DNA of 64,000 nt. It comes from Agromyces sp. LHK192 (GTDB lineage Bacteria; Actinomycetota; Actinomycetes; Actinomycetales; Microbacteriaceae). Shown here in pieces: positions 34,882 to 43,386 of the stretch. Below the pieces are notes generated by a model, which worked only from the letters and a program-made list of their open reading frames with translations, made no database searches and had not been told where the DNA came from. Each line of letters starts with the position of its first letter. Position 1 is the stretch's first letter. Location of the stretch: positions 2,790,001 through 2,854,000 of the forward strand of contig NZ_CP034753.1 of assembly GCF_004006235.1 (NCBI RefSeq), written 5' to 3'. The position numbers and the translations under genes were made by a program.

Positions 34882-35178
34882 TCATGCCACGTGCACGGTC
34901 TCGAAGTGCTCGACGACGGGGAACGGCTCGTAGAAGCCGTGCAGCAGTTCGCGCCACCGCTGGTACTCGGGCGAGCCGCGGAATCCGTGCTCGTGCGCCT
35001 CGACCGACTCCCAGCGCACCAGCAGCAGGTACTCGCTCGGCGACTCGATCGACCGCGACAGGCGAAGGTCGACGAAGCCGGGCATCGACGCGATGATCGC
35101 CTTCGCCTGGCCGAAGGCGGCTTCGAACTCGCCCTCGCGACCGGGGACGACGGGCAGGATCGCGTGCTCGAGGATCAT
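34882..35178 (-). CDS. Antibiotic biosynthesis monooxygenase (ABM) domain protein
   Basis: The 98-residue dimeric ferredoxin-like fold protein (MILEHAILPVVPGREGEFEAAF at the start, SPSEYLLLVRWESVEAHEHGFR in the middle) is of the YgiN/ABM superfamily. Members act as cofactor-free oxygenases or heme-degrading enzymes; the substrate is unknown. The ATG overlaps the stop of the PaaK-like ligase gene (ATGA), so the two are coupled. Confidence 0.82.
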   Translation of the reverse strand: MILEHAILPVVPGREGEFEAAFGQAKAIIASMPGFVDLRLSRSIESPSEYLLLVRWESVEAHEHGFRGSPEYQRWRELLHGFYEPFPVVEHFETVHVA

Positions 35179-36638
35179 CGGGCGAGCCTATCCGGATGCT
35201 TCGCCGAGCGACGATTCGGGTGCGCCGCCGGATGCCCCGCCGCAGCCGCGCTCCGATATCGCCGGGGCTTGCCCTCCCCGAGGTCGCCGAGGCGCGGCAC
35301 GCGCCGCACCGGGACGGGCCGACCGAGCAGCGCCTCGAGCGCCCGCGCGGCGGCGTCGGCGTCGCCGCCGGCGATCGTCGCGCGGACGTCGCCCGCGGCA
35401 TCCTGGTCGACGGTCCATCCGTGCGCGCCGTTCGCCTGGAGCAGCTGGGTCAGGTCGACGCAGGCGACCAGGCTCCCGTCGCCGGCGAGGAAGCGGGTGT
35501 GCTCGCGCCCCTCGAGGTCGGCGATGCCGACGGCGCCGTCGGGCAGCCGCACGATTCTGCCGTGGTCGCCGGTGCGGTAGCGCACGAGCGGCAGCAGGGG
35601 GTTCTCCCCCGCGGTCACGACGATCTCGCCGACGTCGCCGTCGGCGACGGGCGCGCCGTCGGCATCGAGGGTCTCGACGAGCACCCGCCGCCCGAGCACG
35701 CGGAACGGCCCGTCGTCCGTGCGGACCCCGATCGGCCTGGTCTCGTGGAGTCCGTACACGTCGAAGACGGGGCATCCGAACGCCGCCTCGAGTTCGGCGC
35801 GCAGCGGCGCGGCCAAGGCCATGGCGCCCGAGAACAGGGCGAGGGGGCGCACCGCGTCGCGCAGGTCGGGCGCCAGTAGCTCGGCGAGGCTCGTAGGGTC
35901 GCCGGTGATCACCTGCGGGTCCTGGTCGAGCAGGAACGCGCGACGGGTCGCGCCCGCGGGCCACTGCCCCTGGTGGAGGTTGACCCGGGCCATCGTGCGC
36001 TGGTCGAACCCGCTGATGACCGAGGCGTACGTGAACGCCTGGCGCTGGTGCACGACGTGGGCGATGGCCATCCGCTCGCCGTCGGGCCGCCAGTCGACGC
36101 CCTCGGCGCGGACCAGGTCGACGAGGAGGTGGAACCCGCGGGCGACCTCCTCGACGTCGTCGGGCAGCACCAGGGCGGCTCCGGTCGAGCCCGAGCTCGT
36201 GCCGTGCAGCATCCGCCCGTAGTCCGCGTCGAGCGGCACGAACGCGGCGATGTCGTGCACGAGGTCGGCCCGCGAGATCGTCGGGAAGTCGGCCAGCTCG
36301 GCCAGTCCACCCCGGTCGCGGCGCTCACGATAGTGCAGCAGCCGCCGAGCGCGGGCGAGGTGCTCCTCCAGCCAGCCGTCGAGCGGCAGCGGATGCCGCG
36401 TGCGCTCGACCTGCTCGGCCGTGAGCCGGTCGCCGGTCGCGTGCGTCCAGGTCGGTGCGTGCGGATGCCGCCGCAACCGCTCGAGCCGTTCGGCGCCCGC
36501 GGCACCGAGCGTCGGCCAGCGCTCGTCGTCACCGAGCACCGCGGCGACGTGCGGGGTGTACTCCGCCAGGGCGAGCGGGTCGGATTCGTCGCGTCCGCTC
36601 ACGCGGGCACCCCGAACGGATGCCGCCGGGCCGCGCAC
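35175..36638 (-). CDS. PaaK/coenzyme F390 synthetase-like adenylate-forming ligase
   Basis: The 487-residue ANL-type protein has TSSGSTGAALVLPDD as the phosphate-binding loop, VYGLHETRPIG as the A5-like motif, VRYRTGDHGRIVRLPDG as the A7-like motif, and a C-terminal domain containing the lysine of EGKPRRYRS. The acid substrate is unknown. The start is uncertain: a GTG at 36638 or one at 36599 (VSGRDESD) with GGGG upstream. It begins 31 bp after the helical gene of the MoxR operon. Confidence 0.75.
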   Translation of the reverse strand: MRGPAASVRGARVSGRDESDPLALAEYTPHVAAVLGDDERWPTLGAAGAERLERLRRHPHAPTWTHATGDRLTAEQVERTRHPLPLDGWLEEHLARARRLLHYRERRDRGGLAELADFPTISRADLVHDIAAFVPLDADYGRMLHGTSSGSTGAALVLPDDVEEVARGFHLLVDLVRAEGVDWRPDGERMAIAHVVHQRQAFTYASVISGFDQRTMARVNLHQGQWPAGATRRAFLLDQDPQVITGDPTSLAELLAPDLRDAVRPLALFSGAMALAAPLRAELEAAFGCPVFDVYGLHETRPIGVRTDDGPFRVLGRRVLVETLDADGAPVADGDVGEIVVTAGENPLLPLVRYRTGDHGRIVRLPDGAVGIADLEGREHTRFLAGDGSLVACVDLTQLLQANGAHGWTVDQDAAGDVRATIAGGDADAAARALEALLGRPVPVRRVPRLGDLGEGKPRRYRSAAAAGHPAAHPNRRSAKHPDRLAR

Positions 36639-36669: not shown

Positions 36670-37311
36670 TCATTCACGCGTGTACCTCGCGGCCGCCTCC
36701 TTGGCGCGGGCCTCGGCGAGGCGGCGCGCGACCTCCGCGCGGTGCCGATGCTCCGCGTACGCCTCGTTCAGCGCCCGGTTCTGGGCGAGCGAGTCGATCG
36801 CGGCCAGCATCGAGCGCGCGGTCTCCGCATCCTCGCCCGCGGGCAGGCGACCCGACCAGAGCAGGAGCGTGCGGGCGGCCTCCTCCCGGCGGGTGTCGTC
36901 GGCGAGCCAGTCGAGCGGGTCGCTCGCGCTCGCGACGCGCAGCGCCAGCGCGTCGATCGCGAGCGCACGCGCGGCCTCCGGGTTCGCGGCGACCAGCGGC
37001 GGCTCGAGCGGCCCGACGAGTTCGTCGGACGCGAGCACCCACAGTCCGATTGCCGCGCCCAGCCGTACCTCCGCATCTCCGGCGTATTCGAGGCACGAGA
37101 GCTGCGTCGCCCCGGTTCGGCCGAGCACGTCGGCGGCGAGCGCGGGCAGCTGCACCCGCTCGTCGAGGAACGGGCGCGGCACGCTCGAGATCCTCGAGGC
37201 GACGGCGGCGACGGATGGACCTGGCGCGAGCTGCTCCCACCGCACCGGGTCGTCCGCGTCTGCGGCGACCCGCTGCGTCCAGCGGGCGAGCCGTTCGTCG
37301 GGTTCAACCAT
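36670..37311 (-). CDS. Helical protein of the MoxR-VWA operon, unknown function
   Basis: The 213-residue protein is rich in Ala, Leu and Arg, with helical-repeat character: TGATQLSCLEYAGDAEVRLGAAIGLWVLA and ARTLLLWSGRLPAGEDAETARSMLAAID recall HEAT-type arrays. A charged C-terminal coiled coil ends it (AEHRHRAEVARRLAEARAKEA). The ATG at 37311 overlaps the VWA gene stop by 8 bp. It may be a scaffold or partner of the VWA protein; this is inference from position only. Confidence 0.6.
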   Translation of the reverse strand: MVEPDERLARWTQRVAADADDPVRWEQLAPGPSVAAVASRISSVPRPFLDERVQLPALAADVLGRTGATQLSCLEYAGDAEVRLGAAIGLWVLASDELVGPLEPPLVAANPEAARALAIDALALRVASASDPLDWLADDTRREEAARTLLLWSGRLPAGEDAETARSMLAAIDSLAQNRALNEAYAEHRHRAEVARRLAEARAKEAAARYTRE

Positions 37312-39163
37312 GCAGCACCTCCGCGAGCCTGACGCACGCGGCCGGTGCGTCGTCCATCGAGTCCAGGTAGATCACGTCGTAGCCGGCGTCGGCGGCGGCC
37401 GCCTCGACGCTGCGGCGCGGGTCGAGCAGCAGCAGGGTGCCGGTCGAGAGCTTGGCGCGCACCTCGGCCGCGACGTGCTCGAAGCCGGGGTTCCACCGGC
37501 CGAACATCGAGTCGAGACCCTCGTCGGAGAGCACGACCACGTGCCGCCGCTCGCCCTCGCGGAGCGACATGAGCTTGGCGTACCGCTCGCCGTAGAGGTC
37601 GAGCGGGAACGAGGTGCCGCCGGCGAAGAACGTCGCGAGCCCCTCGATCACGAGCTTCGGGTCGCGGACGAACCACTCCGTCCCGGCGACCTGCCGCGGA
37701 CCGGAGAAGCTGGTGACGCGCACCCGGCCGCCGCCGCGCAGCACCGACAGCGCGAGGATCGTCCCCGCGAGCACCGCGGGCGAACCGGTGACGGGGTTCG
37801 GCATCGACCCCGACGAGTCGATGTAGAGGTCGAGCTCGATGCTGGCCTCGACCGGTTCGGGGTCGCCCTCGATCCAGCTCCGCCGACGGGTCGTGACGCC
37901 GGGGATCGGCGTGATGGACCCCTGCATCGTCGTCGGCCAGTCGATCTCGGCGAGGTCGTCGCCGACCTCCCACAGCTCGGACGGGCCGGGGAGTTCGATC
38001 GACGGCCGCGCGTCGCGCCGCTGGGTGAAGGGCCGAACCCATCGGGCGGCGTCGAGGCGGTAGCGCTCGGCGAGGCCGGCCCGATCGTCGACGCTGTACA
38101 ACCCCCGGGTGTCGGCCGTGCCGTAGCCCTGCCCGCCCGCACCATCCTTCGCACGCCCTGACGAGCCCGCACGAGCCGCCGCGTCGCGCGGATCGACGGG
38201 TGCCTCATGCAACCGCCGGTCCGCGAGGATCCGGCCCGTCTCCTCGGTGCTCGGCGCCGAGTCGTCGGCGTCGCACACGCCCATGCCGAACGCGATGAGA
38301 CCGGCCGTGCGCCCGAGCAGGCGGTCGACCTCGATGAGGTACGGCGCCGCGAGCATGCCGAAGCGGAGCGCGCCCGACACCGGGTCGATCGCGAAGGTCC
38401 GCACGGTGTCGGCGACGAGCGCGGCGTCGAGCTCGGGGCGGGTCATCGCGAGCTCGATCAGCTCGTCCTCGATCCGGTCGGCGGCGGCCCGCGCCTCCTG
38501 CAGCTCGCGCTCCTGCTCGGCATAGCGTTCGCGCGTCCGGGCCGTGAAAACGACGGGCGCCTGGTCGGCGCCTGTCGGCGCGGCCTCGCGCTCGGGAAGC
38601 GCCGGCGGCCGGGGCGGGCACATCGTGCCGGCCGGCCGGCGCCAGAGGAGTTCGTACGTACGCCGGTAGACCCACCAGAGGCGGTCCTCCGCGTCGAACG
38701 AGCGATGGAACATCAGGCGCATCATGCGCGCGAGGCCGGGTTCGGCCTCGTCGGGCGCGGCGCGGCGCTGCAGCTCGGCGACGCGGGCGTTCACGAGCAG
38801 GTCGCTCCAGAGGTTCGCGAGGTAGCCCTGCCTGGCCGGGTCCTCCGCGCCCCCGGAGGCGACGAGCGCGCGGCCCATCTGGTGCCGGATCTTCAGCGAG
38901 TCGATACGGGTGCTCGGGGAGAGCACGTGGTGGCCGAGTTCGTGTGCGAACACCGACTCGAGCTCGCCGCCGATGCCGTCCGCCTCGAGCATCGCGGGGT
39001 CCACGGTGATCGCCGGCGGGAACTCGAACCATGCCGCGGCCCCGTGCGCGTCACCGGCGCCGGGCAGCAGCTTCGGGTCGTGCATCTCGACGCGCCACAG
39101 CGCCTGCGCCGCGATCCAGGCGTCGCGCGCCGCGTCGTCCAGCGCGCCGCCTCCGGCGTCCAT
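37304..39163 (-). CDS. Zincin-like metallopeptidase fused to VWA domain (COG3864/DUF2201-like)
   Basis: The 619-residue protein has an N-terminal zincin motif HELGHH at residues 74-79, followed by NLWSDLLVNARV (117-128), matching the N..xD...N pattern of DUF2201 peptidase-like domains. A charged helical middle segment spans 200-260. A C-terminal VWA domain has the complete MIDAS: D449-x-S451-x-S453, T517 in GGTSF and D547 in VVVLSDEGLD. The ATG at 39163 overlaps the previous stop (TGATG), which is preferred over a GTG at 39190. Partnership with the MoxR ATPase is typical, but the process is unknown. Confidence 0.8.
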   Translation of the reverse strand: MDAGGGALDDAARDAWIAAQALWRVEMHDPKLLPGAGDAHGAAAWFEFPPAITVDPAMLEADGIGGELESVFAHELGHHVLSPSTRIDSLKIRHQMGRALVASGGAEDPARQGYLANLWSDLLVNARVAELQRRAAPDEAEPGLARMMRLMFHRSFDAEDRLWWVYRRTYELLWRRPAGTMCPPRPPALPEREAAPTGADQAPVVFTARTRERYAEQERELQEARAAADRIEDELIELAMTRPELDAALVADTVRTFAIDPVSGALRFGMLAAPYLIEVDRLLGRTAGLIAFGMGVCDADDSAPSTEETGRILADRRLHEAPVDPRDAAARAGSSGRAKDGAGGQGYGTADTRGLYSVDDRAGLAERYRLDAARWVRPFTQRRDARPSIELPGPSELWEVGDDLAEIDWPTTMQGSITPIPGVTTRRRSWIEGDPEPVEASIELDLYIDSSGSMPNPVTGSPAVLAGTILALSVLRGGGRVRVTSFSGPRQVAGTEWFVRDPKLVIEGLATFFAGGTSFPLDLYGERYAKLMSLREGERRHVVVLSDEGLDSMFGRWNPGFEHVAAEVRAKLSTGTLLLLDPRRSVEAAAADAGYDVIYLDSMDDAPAACVRLAEVLHG

Positions 39164-39981
39164 CAGCCCGGCTCCGGCGTCCAGAGCCACGCCAGGTGGG
39201 TGTCGGTCCGCAGCACGACGTTCACGCCCGGGAGCCCGACGGCGGCCGGCCGGTCCCGCGCGAGGTCGGATGCCTCATCCGCCTCGGCCCGCGCGCATCG
39301 CCCACCCCACACGTCGCCGTCGACCCGCCACCACTCACCGGCGGCGAACACGGCGAATCCGCCGGTCGCGTCGAGCGGATGCCACTGCTCCGGCGGGGCG
39401 ACCCAGGCGTCGCCGAATCCGGCGAAGCCCCCGACGCTCCACACGAATCCGTTCGCCGCCGACCGACCCGGCCACCAGTACCGGTCGGTCGCCTGCCGAT
39501 CGAGGAACTCGTCGAGGCCGGACGCCGCGGACGCACCCGAGATCGCAGAGGCACCGGATGCCGCCGACGCACCCCATGCCTCAAGCCCGAGGACGGCGGC
39601 CGCGACGCGAGCGCGCCCCTCCGCGAAGCGCATCGCCTCGCACCGGGCGAGCGCATCCTCGCGCAACGCCACGACCCCGGCCCGCCAGCCCGCGAGGGCG
39701 GCGACGTCGAGCAGGGCCTCACGGGCCGGCCGCAGCGTCACGCCCGGGGCATCCGTCGTCACGCGCCCGTCGGCGGCGTCGGCGAGCATCGAAACGCCCG
39801 CACCGAGCGCCGCACGGAACGCGCGCTCGCGGCCTCCGCGGCGCACGACGTTCGCGACGGCGAGTGCAGGGTCGAGTCCGGCCGCGGCGAGCGCATCGAC
39901 GGCGCGGGCCTCGGCCGCGGCATCCGGTTCGGTCAGCGGGCGATACGTCGAGTCGGCCAGCACGCTCGGCCGCGCGATCAT
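39163..39981 (-). CDS. Unknown protein of the MoxR-VWA operon
   Basis: The 272-residue protein has a helical N-terminal half (DAAAEARAVDALAAAGLDPALAVANVV). A short Gly/Ala/Ser linker (SAASGASAISGASAASG) leads to a tryptophan-rich beta C-terminal half (DRYWWPGRSAANGFVW, DAWVAPPEQWHPLD, GEWWRVDGDVWGG, THLAWLW). I recognise no family. The ATG overlaps the MoxR stop by 4 bp and its own stop overlaps the VWA start. This tight coupling suggests stoichiometric assembly with both. Confidence 0.6.
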   Translation of the reverse strand: MIARPSVLADSTYRPLTEPDAAAEARAVDALAAAGLDPALAVANVVRRGGRERAFRAALGAGVSMLADAADGRVTTDAPGVTLRPAREALLDVAALAGWRAGVVALREDALARCEAMRFAEGRARVAAAVLGLEAWGASAASGASAISGASAASGLDEFLDRQATDRYWWPGRSAANGFVWSVGGFAGFGDAWVAPPEQWHPLDATGGFAVFAAGEWWRVDGDVWGGRCARAEADEASDLARDRPAAVGLPGVNVVLRTDTHLAWLWTPEPG

Positions 39982-41549
39982 CCGGCCCGCTCCGCCCAGC
40001 GCAGGTAGGCGGTGTACCGCTGGTGCAGGTACTTGAGTGCGGTGAGGTCGTCGAAGTTGCGGCCGTACAGCTTGCCGGTCGCCGCGATCGTGCGGATGCG
40101 CGATTCGATCTCGGTGATGCGGCGCGACGCCTCGACCGGGGACAGTCCGTCGAGGCCGGCGTCGAGCTGTGCGAGCAGGTCGACGACCGGGTCGTCGACG
40201 CCGAGCCCGAGGGCCGCGAACTGCCGGCGGGACTGGGCGAACAGGTCGGCGAGCCAGCTCATCGGGTCGGTCGCGAGCTCGCGTTCGGCGCCGACGTCGA
40301 ACCGCGGGTGCGTCGGATTCGGCAGCAGCTTGCCGCGCAGCGCGAACGGCAGCACCGCGGCGATGTCGTCGAGGCCGACCTCGTCGCGCCCGCGGAACCA
40401 CGCCATCGCCTTCGCGTAGATGATGAGCGTCTGCAGCGGCCGCACCGACAGCCCGTTGAGCGTCTGCGCCCCGAGGTCGGCCTCGAGGTCGGCGCCCGAG
40501 TTCTGCTCGATCACCTCGTTGACCCGCCCGCCCGCGGTCGTGACCGTGTCCTTCGTGCGGTATTCGAACCGGCGCCCGCCGTGCTGCACGAACTCGAACT
40601 GGCCGAAGAAGAACTCGAGCTGGCGGCGCACCTGCGCTGGCAGCGGCAGCGCGCGGATCTCGGCGCGCATCCGCGCGCGCTCGTCGGCCGTGAACACGAG
40701 CTCGTCGGGCACGTGCTCCTCGGGCTTCTCCCCGGCCTCGACGCGGGCGACCAGCTCGTCGAAGAAGTGGGCGTTGAAGCCCGCCGCCGGCACGGTCACG
40801 TCCATGCGGTCGCGCAGGGCCTGGATCACGGGGAACGTGCCGCCGCCCGCGTCGTCGTTGGCGGTGAAGTACCAGCTCTCGACCCCGCCGTCGGCGTTGG
40901 TGCGCAGCATCTGGTCGTGGCTCTCGACGTAGCCCTCGGCGACCATCGTGAGCAGCGCCGACTGCGTCTTCGTCGGGATCCGGTTGTACTCGTCGATGAT
41001 CTTCACCGGCCGGCCGAGCCATTCGCGCCAGGCGATGCGGATGTCGGCGAGCCGCTCGGCGTTCATGAGGTCGCGCGGCAGCGGGATGCCGACGAGGTCG
41101 CTGACGCCCAGCTGCGGATGCCCCTGCTGCACGCCCCGGCGCACGTCGTCGGGCGACGAGCCGGCGAGCACGCCCATGAGCACGGCGACGGTGGTCTTGC
41201 CGCGTCCCGGTCCGCCGATGAGGAGGCACTTGCCGCCGACGGCGAATGTGATGAGCGGCATGAGGACGTTCGACGAGAAGGAGGCGTCGCTCGGCAGGTT
41301 GAGCTCCGCCCCGGCGTCGCCGAGGGCGAATGTCACGGGTGCGCCGTCGGAGAACTCGAGGTCGTAGTACGGCGAGATCACGGCCCGGTTGACGATCCAG
41401 TAGTACGCCTGGCGCAGCTTCTCGTCGAGCTGCGGTGCGGCCTGCGCGTCGGGCGCGAGGAACAGGTCCTCTGCCGTGATCGACGTCGATGCACCGGGTC
41501 CGGCGGGGGCGGTGGGGGACGCGGAGACCTTGTGCCATCGATCCGACAT
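39978..41549 (-). CDS. MoxR-family AAA+ ATPase
   Basis: The 523-residue protein has Walker A GGPGRGKT (112-119), Walker B KIIDE (183-187) followed by YNRIPTKTQSALLTMVAEG, sensor-1-like YFTANDD (227-233) and arginine-finger-like LRDRMD (245-250). The C-terminal 250 residues form the lid and a helical extension. MoxR ATPases act as chaperones with VWA partners to insert metals or remodel complexes. TAGGCT ends 6 nt before the ATG, so this gene heads its own leaderless transcript. Confidence 0.9.
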   Translation of the reverse strand: MSDRWHKVSASPTAPAGPGASTSITAEDLFLAPDAQAAPQLDEKLRQAYYWIVNRAVISPYYDLEFSDGAPVTFALGDAGAELNLPSDASFSSNVLMPLITFAVGGKCLLIGGPGRGKTTVAVLMGVLAGSSPDDVRRGVQQGHPQLGVSDLVGIPLPRDLMNAERLADIRIAWREWLGRPVKIIDEYNRIPTKTQSALLTMVAEGYVESHDQMLRTNADGGVESWYFTANDDAGGGTFPVIQALRDRMDVTVPAAGFNAHFFDELVARVEAGEKPEEHVPDELVFTADERARMRAEIRALPLPAQVRRQLEFFFGQFEFVQHGGRRFEYRTKDTVTTAGGRVNEVIEQNSGADLEADLGAQTLNGLSVRPLQTLIIYAKAMAWFRGRDEVGLDDIAAVLPFALRGKLLPNPTHPRFDVGAERELATDPMSWLADLFAQSRRQFAALGLGVDDPVVDLLAQLDAGLDGLSPVEASRRITEIESRIRTIAATGKLYGRNFDDLTALKYLHQRYTAYLRWAERAG

Positions 41550-41555
41550 CGCGCC

Positions 41556-41561
41556 AGCCTA
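41556..41561 (-). promoter_or_regulatory. -10 box of the MoxR operon, embedded in the nadR stop codon
   Basis: TAGGCT on the minus strand begins with the TAG stop codon of the nadR-like gene and ends 6 nt before the moxR ATG. Confidence 0.6.
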
Positions 41562-42707
41562 TCCGCCGGGTGCGACGCGGACGTCGACGCCGTCGTCGAG
41601 GTCGGCGCGCACGCCGGATGCCTCGGCCGAACGCCGCTGGATCTCCTCCTGCTCGGCCTGCGACCGGGCTTCGAGCGGCAGCGCGAACTCGAGCCTCGCG
41701 GCCATCGTCCGGCGCGCGGCCGGCAGGGACGCGGCGACGCGCTCGGGTACGGATCCGTGCACCTCGAGCCACGGCACCGGCTGGGCGGCGAGCACGTCGC
41801 GGAACCGCTGCTGCATGTCGTGGCGCAGGTGCTCGCCGTCGCGCGTGCCGTCTTGGACGAACGGGATCTCGTCGCCCGTGAGCAGGTACAGGTCGGGCCG
41901 GTGGCCGGCCGCGCGGTCGACGATGCGCGGCGACGGATGCCCCACGTACCGCTCATGCCAGAGCGCGGTGGCGAGCACGTCGGTGTCGCATACCAGCACC
42001 GGCGCGGGCACCCGCCGCAGCGCGGCCGCCTCGAGCTCGATCTGCCGGTCGACGATGAGGTCGAACTCGTCGCTGCGCCACGGCTCGTCGAGGCCGCCGT
42101 CGGCGCCGACGCCGCGGGTGATCGAGTGCTCGCGGCCGTACTCGGGCACCCAGTGGGTGCCGAGCGCCTCGGCGAGCGCCTCGGCGAGCGTGGTCGAACC
42201 GGTCGACTCGGCGCCGAGCACGACGATGCGCGCGGCGAGCGAGGCGCGCACCGACGGTGCGAGCTCGTGCCAGTGCGCGGCAGGATCGGCGCGCACCGCG
42301 GTGCCCGACACCGGGTTGACCCGGCGGCCGGGGTCGACCTGCACCCAGGCCGCGCCGAGCCGCTCGGCGAGTTCGGCGCCGTACCCGTCGCTCGTGAACA
42401 CCGCGTCGACGGGCCCGGCCGGCGACCCGTCGGCGAGCGCGGCGATGAGCGCGGTGTGCGCGGTCCACGCGGCATCCGACGCGAAGTCGACGGGTGCGTC
42501 GTCGAGCGCCGCGACGACCCGGGCCGTCGGATGCTCCTCGCGGACCCAGTCGGCACGCACCTCGAACGGGACCGACTCGACGCTGGAACCCAGCACCTCG
42601 ACCGTTACGGCGTCGCAGGCGCGCAGCGCCGTGCGGATCAGGTGCGAGTGCCCGGCGTGCAGCGGGTAGAACTTGCCGATGACGAGGCCGTGGCGGAACT
42701 CAGGCAC
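41559..42707 (-). CDS. nadR: NadR-like bifunctional NMN adenylyltransferase / ribosylnicotinamide kinase
   Basis: The enzyme phosphorylates nicotinamide riboside and adenylates NMN to NAD. The 382-residue protein has the nucleotidyltransferase motif GKFYPLHAGHSHLI near residue 10 and a second P-loop VLGAESTGSTTLAEAL near residue 165 for the kinase, with YLLTGDEIPFVQDGTRDGE later. It lacks the N-terminal HTH of enteric NadR. The GTG at 42707 overlaps the pnuC stop; the longer ATG frame starting in a 9-bp repeat (MPRMPRMPRR) is rejected. Confidence 0.9.
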   Translation of the reverse strand: MPEFRHGLVIGKFYPLHAGHSHLIRTALRACDAVTVEVLGSSVESVPFEVRADWVREEHPTARVVAALDDAPVDFASDAAWTAHTALIAALADGSPAGPVDAVFTSDGYGAELAERLGAAWVQVDPGRRVNPVSGTAVRADPAAHWHELAPSVRASLAARIVVLGAESTGSTTLAEALAEALGTHWVPEYGREHSITRGVGADGGLDEPWRSDEFDLIVDRQIELEAAALRRVPAPVLVCDTDVLATALWHERYVGHPSPRIVDRAAGHRPDLYLLTGDEIPFVQDGTRDGEHLRHDMQQRFRDVLAAQPVPWLEVHGSVPERVAASLPAARRTMAARLEFALPLEARSQAEQEEIQRRSAEASGVRADLDDGVDVRVAPGG

Positions 42708-43374
42708 CGGTCGCGGCCCTCGCCGTGGCATCCGTGGCATCCGTGGCATCCGACTGTTCAGCGCCGGCGGGTCCGTCCGGTGCGTTCCCGCGCTGCTGCC
42801 GCTGCTCGCGCTCCACGCGGAGCCAGGAGCGCCAGCTGACCGCGCAGATCACGATGAACCCGGCGTACAGCACCGCCGTGATCCACAGCCCGGTCGCGAT
42901 CGCGAGCCCGACGAACGCGATGTCGACCGCGATCCAGACCGCCCAGTTCTCGATGCGCTTGCGGTTGAGCAGGTACTGCGCGACGAGGCTCGCGGCCGTG
43001 GTCGCGGTGTCGGCGAGCGCGACCTGCGAGTCGGTGAACGTCGCGAGCACCCACCAGAGCAGTACGGTGCCACCGACGCCGGCGAGCACGAGCCACGGCA
43101 CCTGGCGTCGGGGCGTTCGCGCGATGAAGCCGCGGTCGTGCTCGGCTCCGCGCGTCCACCGCCACCACCCGTGCACGCCGAACGCGAGGTACACGACCTG
43201 CAACCCGGTCGCCGCATAGAGGCCGGAGCTCGCGAACAGCACGATGAACACGAGGTTGTTCGCGATGCCGATCGGGTAGTTCCACACGTTGCGCCGGCCC
43301 GCGAGCACGACGCACAGGGCACCGGTCGCGAAGCCGAGCACCTCGGTCCAGTGCGCGAGCAGCCATTCGATCAC
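42700..43374 (-). CDS. pnuC: Nicotinamide riboside transporter PnuC
   Basis: The 224-residue membrane protein has about seven helices. Substrate-pocket segments are VWNYPIGIANNLVFIVLF, YLAFGVHGWWRWTRG and LLNRKRIENWAVWIAVDIAFVG. Its C-terminus (SDATDATDATA) is encoded by three 9-bp units containing GGCATCCG on the opposite strand. The uptake is made unidirectional by NadR kinase, encoded by the overlapping downstream gene. The GTG start has TAGGCT six bases upstream. Confidence 0.93.
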   Translation of the reverse strand: MIEWLLAHWTEVLGFATGALCVVLAGRRNVWNYPIGIANNLVFIVLFASSGLYAATGLQVVYLAFGVHGWWRWTRGAEHDRGFIARTPRRQVPWLVLAGVGGTVLLWWVLATFTDSQVALADTATTAASLVAQYLLNRKRIENWAVWIAVDIAFVGLAIATGLWITAVLYAGFIVICAVSWRSWLRVEREQRQQRGNAPDGPAGAEQSDATDATDATARAATGA

Positions 43375-43380
43375 CGGGAC

Positions 43381-43386
43381 AGCCTA
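43381..43386 (-). promoter_or_regulatory. -10 box of pnuC-nadR, leaderless
   Basis: TAGGCT on the minus strand ends 6 nt before the GTG at 43374. A leaderless message leaves no room for an NAD riboswitch. Confidence 0.55.

Follow-up and report, generated by a model that had tools for sequence, protein, structure and literature searches.

Both NorQ/NorD and CbbQ/CbbO consist of a MoxR ATPase and a large protein whose C-terminal VWA domain carries a full MIDAS. In the parts of the reports available, NorQ acts on the NorD linker for metal insertion (PMC13036017), most MIDAS mutants of CbbO lost Rubisco activation, and one acidic residue on the Rubisco surface is needed (PMC4660213). The MoxR-vWA ternary conflict systems (VMAP, iSTAND, FtsH, beta-propeller), as set out in the accessible portion of PMC7159879, encode MoxR and vWA proteins together with further conserved proteins. 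In the window, which is the whole 64,000-nucleotide stretch of Agromyces DNA analysed here, we found a block of five genes (g1-g5) that resembles all of these in its MoxR-vWA core, and NorQ/NorD and CbbQ/CbbO in having a large protein (g3) with a C-terminal VWA domain and a full MIDAS. Unlike NorQD and CbbQO, the block has a g3 whose N-terminal half is of the HExxH type, and it is accompanied by g2, g4, g5 and an NAD-salvage pair, pnuC and nadR (Table 1); we saw no sign at the block of a client for metal insertion or of Rubisco as a client. The PaaK-like g5 and the association with PnuC and NadR, both missed by the earlier note, are the most telling about the setting of the block. A search of the open-licence literature by title and start of abstract found no description of this gene set or of a link between NadR/PnuC and a MoxR-VWA pair.

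Table 1. Features of the g1-g5 block and the adjoining salvage genes, in window positions
Feature	Position	Strand	Description	Basis or remark
TAGGCT before pnuC	43381..43386	-	leaderless-type -10 element, 6 nt 5' of pnuC GTG	sequence
pnuC	42700..43374	-	nicotinamide riboside importer	PF04973, TIGR01528
nadR	41559..42749	-	NMN adenylyltransferase + ribosylnicotinamide kinase	TIGR01526, AAA_28
TAGGCT before moxR	41556..41561	-	putative leaderless -10 element, 6 nt 5' of moxR ATG	overlaps nadR stop codon
g1	39978..41549	-	MoxR-type AAA+ ATPase, 523 aa	ORF call and Pfam
g2	39163..39981	-	protein of no known family, fast-evolving, 272 aa	ORF call
g3	37304..39163	-	metallopeptidase-VWA fusion, 619 aa	motifs, DUF2201 profile, structure matches of VWA half
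HELGHH of g3	38927..38944	-	residues 74-79	sequence and alignment
MIDAS stretch of g3	37525..37819	-	contains D449, S451, S453, T517, D547	sequence and alignment
g4	36670..37311	-	small protein, predicted helical; charged C-terminal segment ending in RYTRE; 213 aa	
g5	35175..36638	-	PaaK-like adenylate-forming enzyme, 487 aa as called	PF00501; conserved beside g4

According to the earlier note, positions 36670-41549 hold four minus-strand genes, each overlapping the next: g1/g2 by 4 bp, g2/g3 by 1 bp and g3/g4 by 8 bp. Both the ORFs and the overlaps were found in the window sequence as claimed. With start codons picked by script, the related loci showed a 4-bp overlap of g1 and g2 in 58/63 cases, a 4-bp overlap of g2 and g3 in 59/62 and an 8-bp overlap of g3 and g4 in 50/63; in the window, CTG stands at the corresponding codon and ATG follows one codon later, which leaves g2 and g3 an overlap of 1 bp. 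The four-gene extent itself proved too narrow, as g5 (whose true start is possibly slightly downstream of the called one), nadR and pnuC also lie in the conserved neighbourhood. Among the window proteins g1-g4, g1 alone was above a Pfam cut-off, and searches of these four against NCBIfam and PADLOC gave weak, uninformative matches for g1 and none for g2, g3 and g4.

The leaderless promoter that had been proposed for the transcript is supported by conservation, since a putative -10 element (TANNNT) lies 6-7 nt 5' of the moxR (g1) start in 37/37 Microbacteriaceae loci scanned. These 37 include 7/7 loci without upstream nadR, and the background rate is 0.0008. A Microbacterium MAG outside the 37-locus scan (L079) has no TANNNT before moxR, and many loci outside Microbacteriaceae lack it at this position. 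A similar -10 element occurs at some possible start in 26/39 pnuC genes, a loose test that allows up to 11 possible starts per gene, and a sigma-70 promoter scan found nothing. Because the moxR start of the window lies 9 nt after the nadR stop, read-through from pnuC into moxR is also likely.

Species genomes were scanned with the g3 alignment, which gave 67 loci, and their gene content was assigned by iterated profiles of the window genes. The results showed that g1-g2-g3-g4-g5 occur in the same order and on the same strand in 59/67 loci; these counts are not independent, because most of the loci come from Microbacterium and a small number of other genera. According to the earlier note, the absence of g2 and g4 from other such loci would speak against one conserved system; both were matched, in order with the other genes, in these 59 loci, indicating that the block is one system, with a very weak g2 match (29-35 bits) in three gammaproteobacterial loci. 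Short or cut contigs account for four of the other eight loci (L056, L079, L100 and L102), distant relatives with one or two block genes for three (L103, L105 and L106), and a rearranged locus, L096, for the last. In L096 (8788-17422, Mycolicibacterium houstonense), g3 stands before moxR and the matches to g3, g4 and g5 are repeated, for which an assembly error is possible. A distant MoxR and VWA pair (L108-L112), matched over the VWA part only, was seen in 17/396 genomes of a phylum survey, mostly in one family, and no g2 or g4 matches were found in the five loci inspected.

The pnuC-nadR pair lies 5' of the block in 38/59 complete loci and 3' of it in 3/59 (Saccharospirillum and two Marinobacter, all gammaproteobacterial), and neither gene is nearby in the remaining 18/59. 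At the chromosomal site of the window, three genomes held different combinations: G194 has pnuC-nadR and no block, G615 has no block and a nadR that adjoins the gene found 3' of g5 in the window, and G631 has the block with pnuC-nadR elsewhere in the genome. The block and pnuC-nadR are thus two separable modules at one site. The stop of g5 lies within a 4-bp overlap with a small ABM-domain gene (34882-35178). This gene seems to belong to the site and not to the system, because its region adjoins nadR in the block-less G615.

For g1, AAA_lid_2 was above the Pfam cut-off and AAA_3 (E 1.1e-4) below it, and the Walker A, Walker B and sensor 1 patterns were present in 66/66 relatives. Intact Walker motifs, a VWA gene in the same operon and a complete MIDAS, the features by which a MoxR/VWA pair is recognised, were all found. 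The HELGHH motif and the complete MIDAS that had been read in g3 are real: H74, E75, H78, H79, N117, D121 and N125, together with the MIDAS residues D449, S451, S453, T517 and D547, were invariant in 41/41 aligned relatives. The COG3864-like call for g3 was likewise borne out by profile-profile comparison with DUF2201 proteins, in which hhalign gave a single colinear match (prob 95.3, E 2.3e-8, columns 51-539) with a score of 74.8 vs at most 20.7 in 40 shuffles. This match uses five DUF2201 rows; a mis-framed sixth row was removed, and with it the match splits in two (prob 72.7 and 13.7).

Like the DUF2201/COG3864-like proteins, g3 has an HExxH domain, an N-x3-D-x3-N helix and then a C-terminal VWA domain; unlike the DUF2201 proteins, it has no PF13203 match, and the homology is remote only. 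The window g3 matched no Pfam family, and PF13203 was also absent from the genome of the window. At the level of sequence profiles, g3 appears as a remote relative of the DUF2201 (COG3864-like) peptidase-VWA proteins, whose role, to our knowledge, is not established. The locus gives a relative of this class fixed neighbours, among them one enzyme of its own, and a metabolic partner that can be measured (nicotinamide riboside to NAD). In a Foldseek search with the g3 model, NorD accounted for three of the four matches at E <=0.001 and a calcium-channel subunit for the fourth; over the whole g3 model the NorD matches are weak (TM 0.23-0.24 by query length). The VWA half also matches the MIDAS domain of midasin, with generic VWA domains within 1 Z unit of it, and the zincin half had no fold match of its own in the structure search. 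The matches of the VWA half to NorD (NorQD) and to midasin support, as a predicted function, the remodelling role suggested for the MoxR-VWA pair. In public records, some g3 relatives are labelled, for example, 'NAD/NADP transhydrogenase alpha subunit', a probable misannotation.

No Pfam family was found in the window g2, in agreement with its description as a protein without a recognised family. Its predicted model has a pLDDT of 87.5, and no clear fold match emerged from structure comparison. Public names of g2 relatives, for example 'potassium transporter Kef', are probably misannotations. The C-terminus of g4 is RYxxE in 54/62 relatives, and its last residue is Glu in 61/62, with L104 as the exception (L096 was left out of both counts). 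By analogy, this terminal Glu is a candidate MIDAS ligand, and as a near-invariant residue it offers a one-residue handle on how such machines grip a partner.

PF00501 was above the Pfam cut-off for g5. Like phenylacetate-CoA ligases, g5 has the adenylation motifs, and its profile matches their solved structures (best E 1.4e-14); among its relatives, the ANL motifs were found in 61/61 (A3), 60/61 (A7), 57/61 (A5) and 56/61 (A10). Unlike PaaK, it is far under the NCBIfam cut-offs for both the PaaK and the DVU_1553 family. Identification as a phenylacetate-CoA ligase proper was rejected, the TIGR02155 score being 38 of 646 bits and below the cut-off.

Pfam searches over 39 g2, 41 g3 and 29 g4 relatives named no credible effector, VMAP, FtsH or propeller domain, and no HEAT family in g4, which the earlier note had described as HEAT-like; one g3 relative touches fvmX3, of the FtsH-ternary type, at E 0.06. 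PADLOC gave no match below E 0.01 for the core genes and pnuC/nadR, and no plasmid, phage or viral-contig match was found for the genes tried. The block also has no variable effector slot, as g5 is always the same enzyme. These results make it unlikely that the block is a MoxR-vWA ternary system for biological conflict (anti-phage or programmed-death) whose NAD module would replenish NAD after damage, even though the block is patchy (4/60 genomes in the genus and 8/199 in the family), g2 is a fast-evolving component and such ternary systems are described in the available text of PMC7159879. Unlike the ternary systems, as far as that text presents them, the block contains no Pfam-recognised VMAP, iSTAND, FtsH or beta-propeller component, of which remote versions may be present, and it has a constant PaaK-like partner and a link to NAD salvage.

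The window PnuC (PF04973, E 1.7e-49) is above the TIGR01528 cut-off (78 vs 42.45 bits), and its NadR matches TIGR01526 over residues 19-332, covering both domains (E 5.9e-53), as well as AAA_28 (E 1.1e-29). In these respects the pair is like PnuC-NadR salvage; unlike the standard form, its NadR is below the TIGR01526 equivalog cut-off (180 of 341 bits) and a MoxR-VWA block is associated with it. Of the genomes first examined that carry the block, 12/12 had NadR. In six the gene lies in trans, and these six trans NadRs share 38-48% identity with that of the window. At the five trans sites inspected, a PnuC gene was adjacent in four and within ~3 kb in the fifth (G360). A further sample comprised 20 genomes lacking a cis NadR at the locus (L073 and L078 are not included, and some genomes, such as L080/G173, recur between the two samples). 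Full-length NadR was found in 16/17 of its genomes with the block, cut and rearranged blocks included; the exception was a Leptospiraceae MAG (L102) with a partial block and no NadR. The three partial relatives had no NadR in two cases and the kinase part only in one.

We then consider the association by taxon, with p values that ignore kinship and genomes dominated by a few related genera. In the genus of the window, g3 occurred in 4/60 and NadR in 8/60 genomes; all four g3 genomes have NadR, in cis in three (Fisher p 1.4e-4). Across the family, g3 was found in 8/199 and NadR in 15/199, so that NadR accompanies 8/8 genomes with g3 vs 7/191 without it (p 1.2e-10), or 2/191 when only full-length NadR is counted (p 8.5e-13); the eight NadRs are in cis in four and in trans in four. 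A second genus, around G652 (the genome with L082), had g3 in 2 and NadR in 11 of 60 sampled genomes, giving NadR in 2/2 with g3 vs 9/58 without (p 0.03). After enlargement with nine Mycolicibacterium/Mycobacterium genomes picked for carrying the block, the ratio became 11/11 vs 9/58 (p 9e-8). The nadR gene also occurs in genomes without the block. Since NadA was present in 60/60 congeners, lost de novo NAD synthesis (auxotrophy) is an unlikely cause in the genus of the window.

A tree of NadR placed the cis copies of actinobacteria together in one starred group, along with the copies of the block-less G194 and G615. A second group joins four trans copies from Microbacteriaceae with two copies from genomes that lack the block. 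G360 is on its own and the three gammaproteobacterial copies lie apart, the deep joins being unsure on account of long branches. One could suppose from the adjacency of pnuC-nadR in 41/59 complete loci that the salvage module is the client, so that the MoxR/VWA/peptidase proteins would remodel or degrade NadR or PnuC and control NAD salvage. We regard this as quite improbable, given that the block accompanies NadRs of 38-48% identity from separate tree groups and distant sites, and that g5 is left unexplained. Because the accompanying NadRs are clearly different, a metabolic link is more likely than physical contact with one particular NadR.

The link could also be a by-product of ancestry or of ecology, both modules being retained in bacteria from similar habitats, with the block serving an unrelated pathway such as g5 maturation for lipid or aromatic-acid use. 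The one-sided dependence of block on NadR repeats in two clades, in the second with NadR in trans, and the side of the block on which pnuC-nadR is found differs between two phyla; such a by-product therefore seems rather unlikely, while still deserving some weight, as both modules are patchy and separable at one site and the statistics ignore the kinship of genomes that are not independent.

The order and overlaps of the genes, their AAA+, MIDAS, HExxH and adenylation motifs, and the co-occurrence of NadR in cis or in trans are kept, which is why we propose that g1-g5 form a NorQD/CbbQO-like remodelling machine that needs NR-to-NAD salvage in the same cell, the most likely of the readings considered but itself about evenly poised between right and wrong. 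In this machine, the MoxR hexamer would drive the VWA adaptor g3, and the C-terminal Glu of g4 would dock on the MIDAS metal, like the acidic client residue with CbbO. The metallopeptidase domain of g3 may hold or trim a client peptide. The client or output enzyme would be g5, the simplest candidate for a client, with ATP-dependent activation of a carboxylic acid as its presumed reaction. The device or its product would consume or release a pyridine nucleotide that PnuC and NadR restore; the need for salvage could come from use of NAD or NMN, from release of NR or NMN, or from a pyridine-nucleotide product. If the NadR link is causal, chemistry linked to NAD would join metal insertion and Rubisco activation among the tasks of MoxR-VWA machines.

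A more specific and distinctly doubtful proposal is that the block makes or services a cofactor or modification derived from a pyridine nucleotide. Imported NR would be converted through NadR to NMN and NAD, and g5 would either activate an acid for attachment to the nucleotide or take the adenylyl group from NAD and return NMN to NadR. The MoxR/zincin-VWA proteins would then load a client enzyme with this product or with a metal, much as NorQD does with iron. If true, two phyla or more would share a pathway of cofactor maturation that is new.

Finally, the kinase P-loop of NadR (window 41559-42749 and the NadRs of L040-L104 and L116-L124) has the sequence GAESTG[ST]T in 39/42 operon copies, which therefore lack the lysine normally found there; the other three have it. 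This lysine was also absent in 8/9 copies at loci where no block adjoins.
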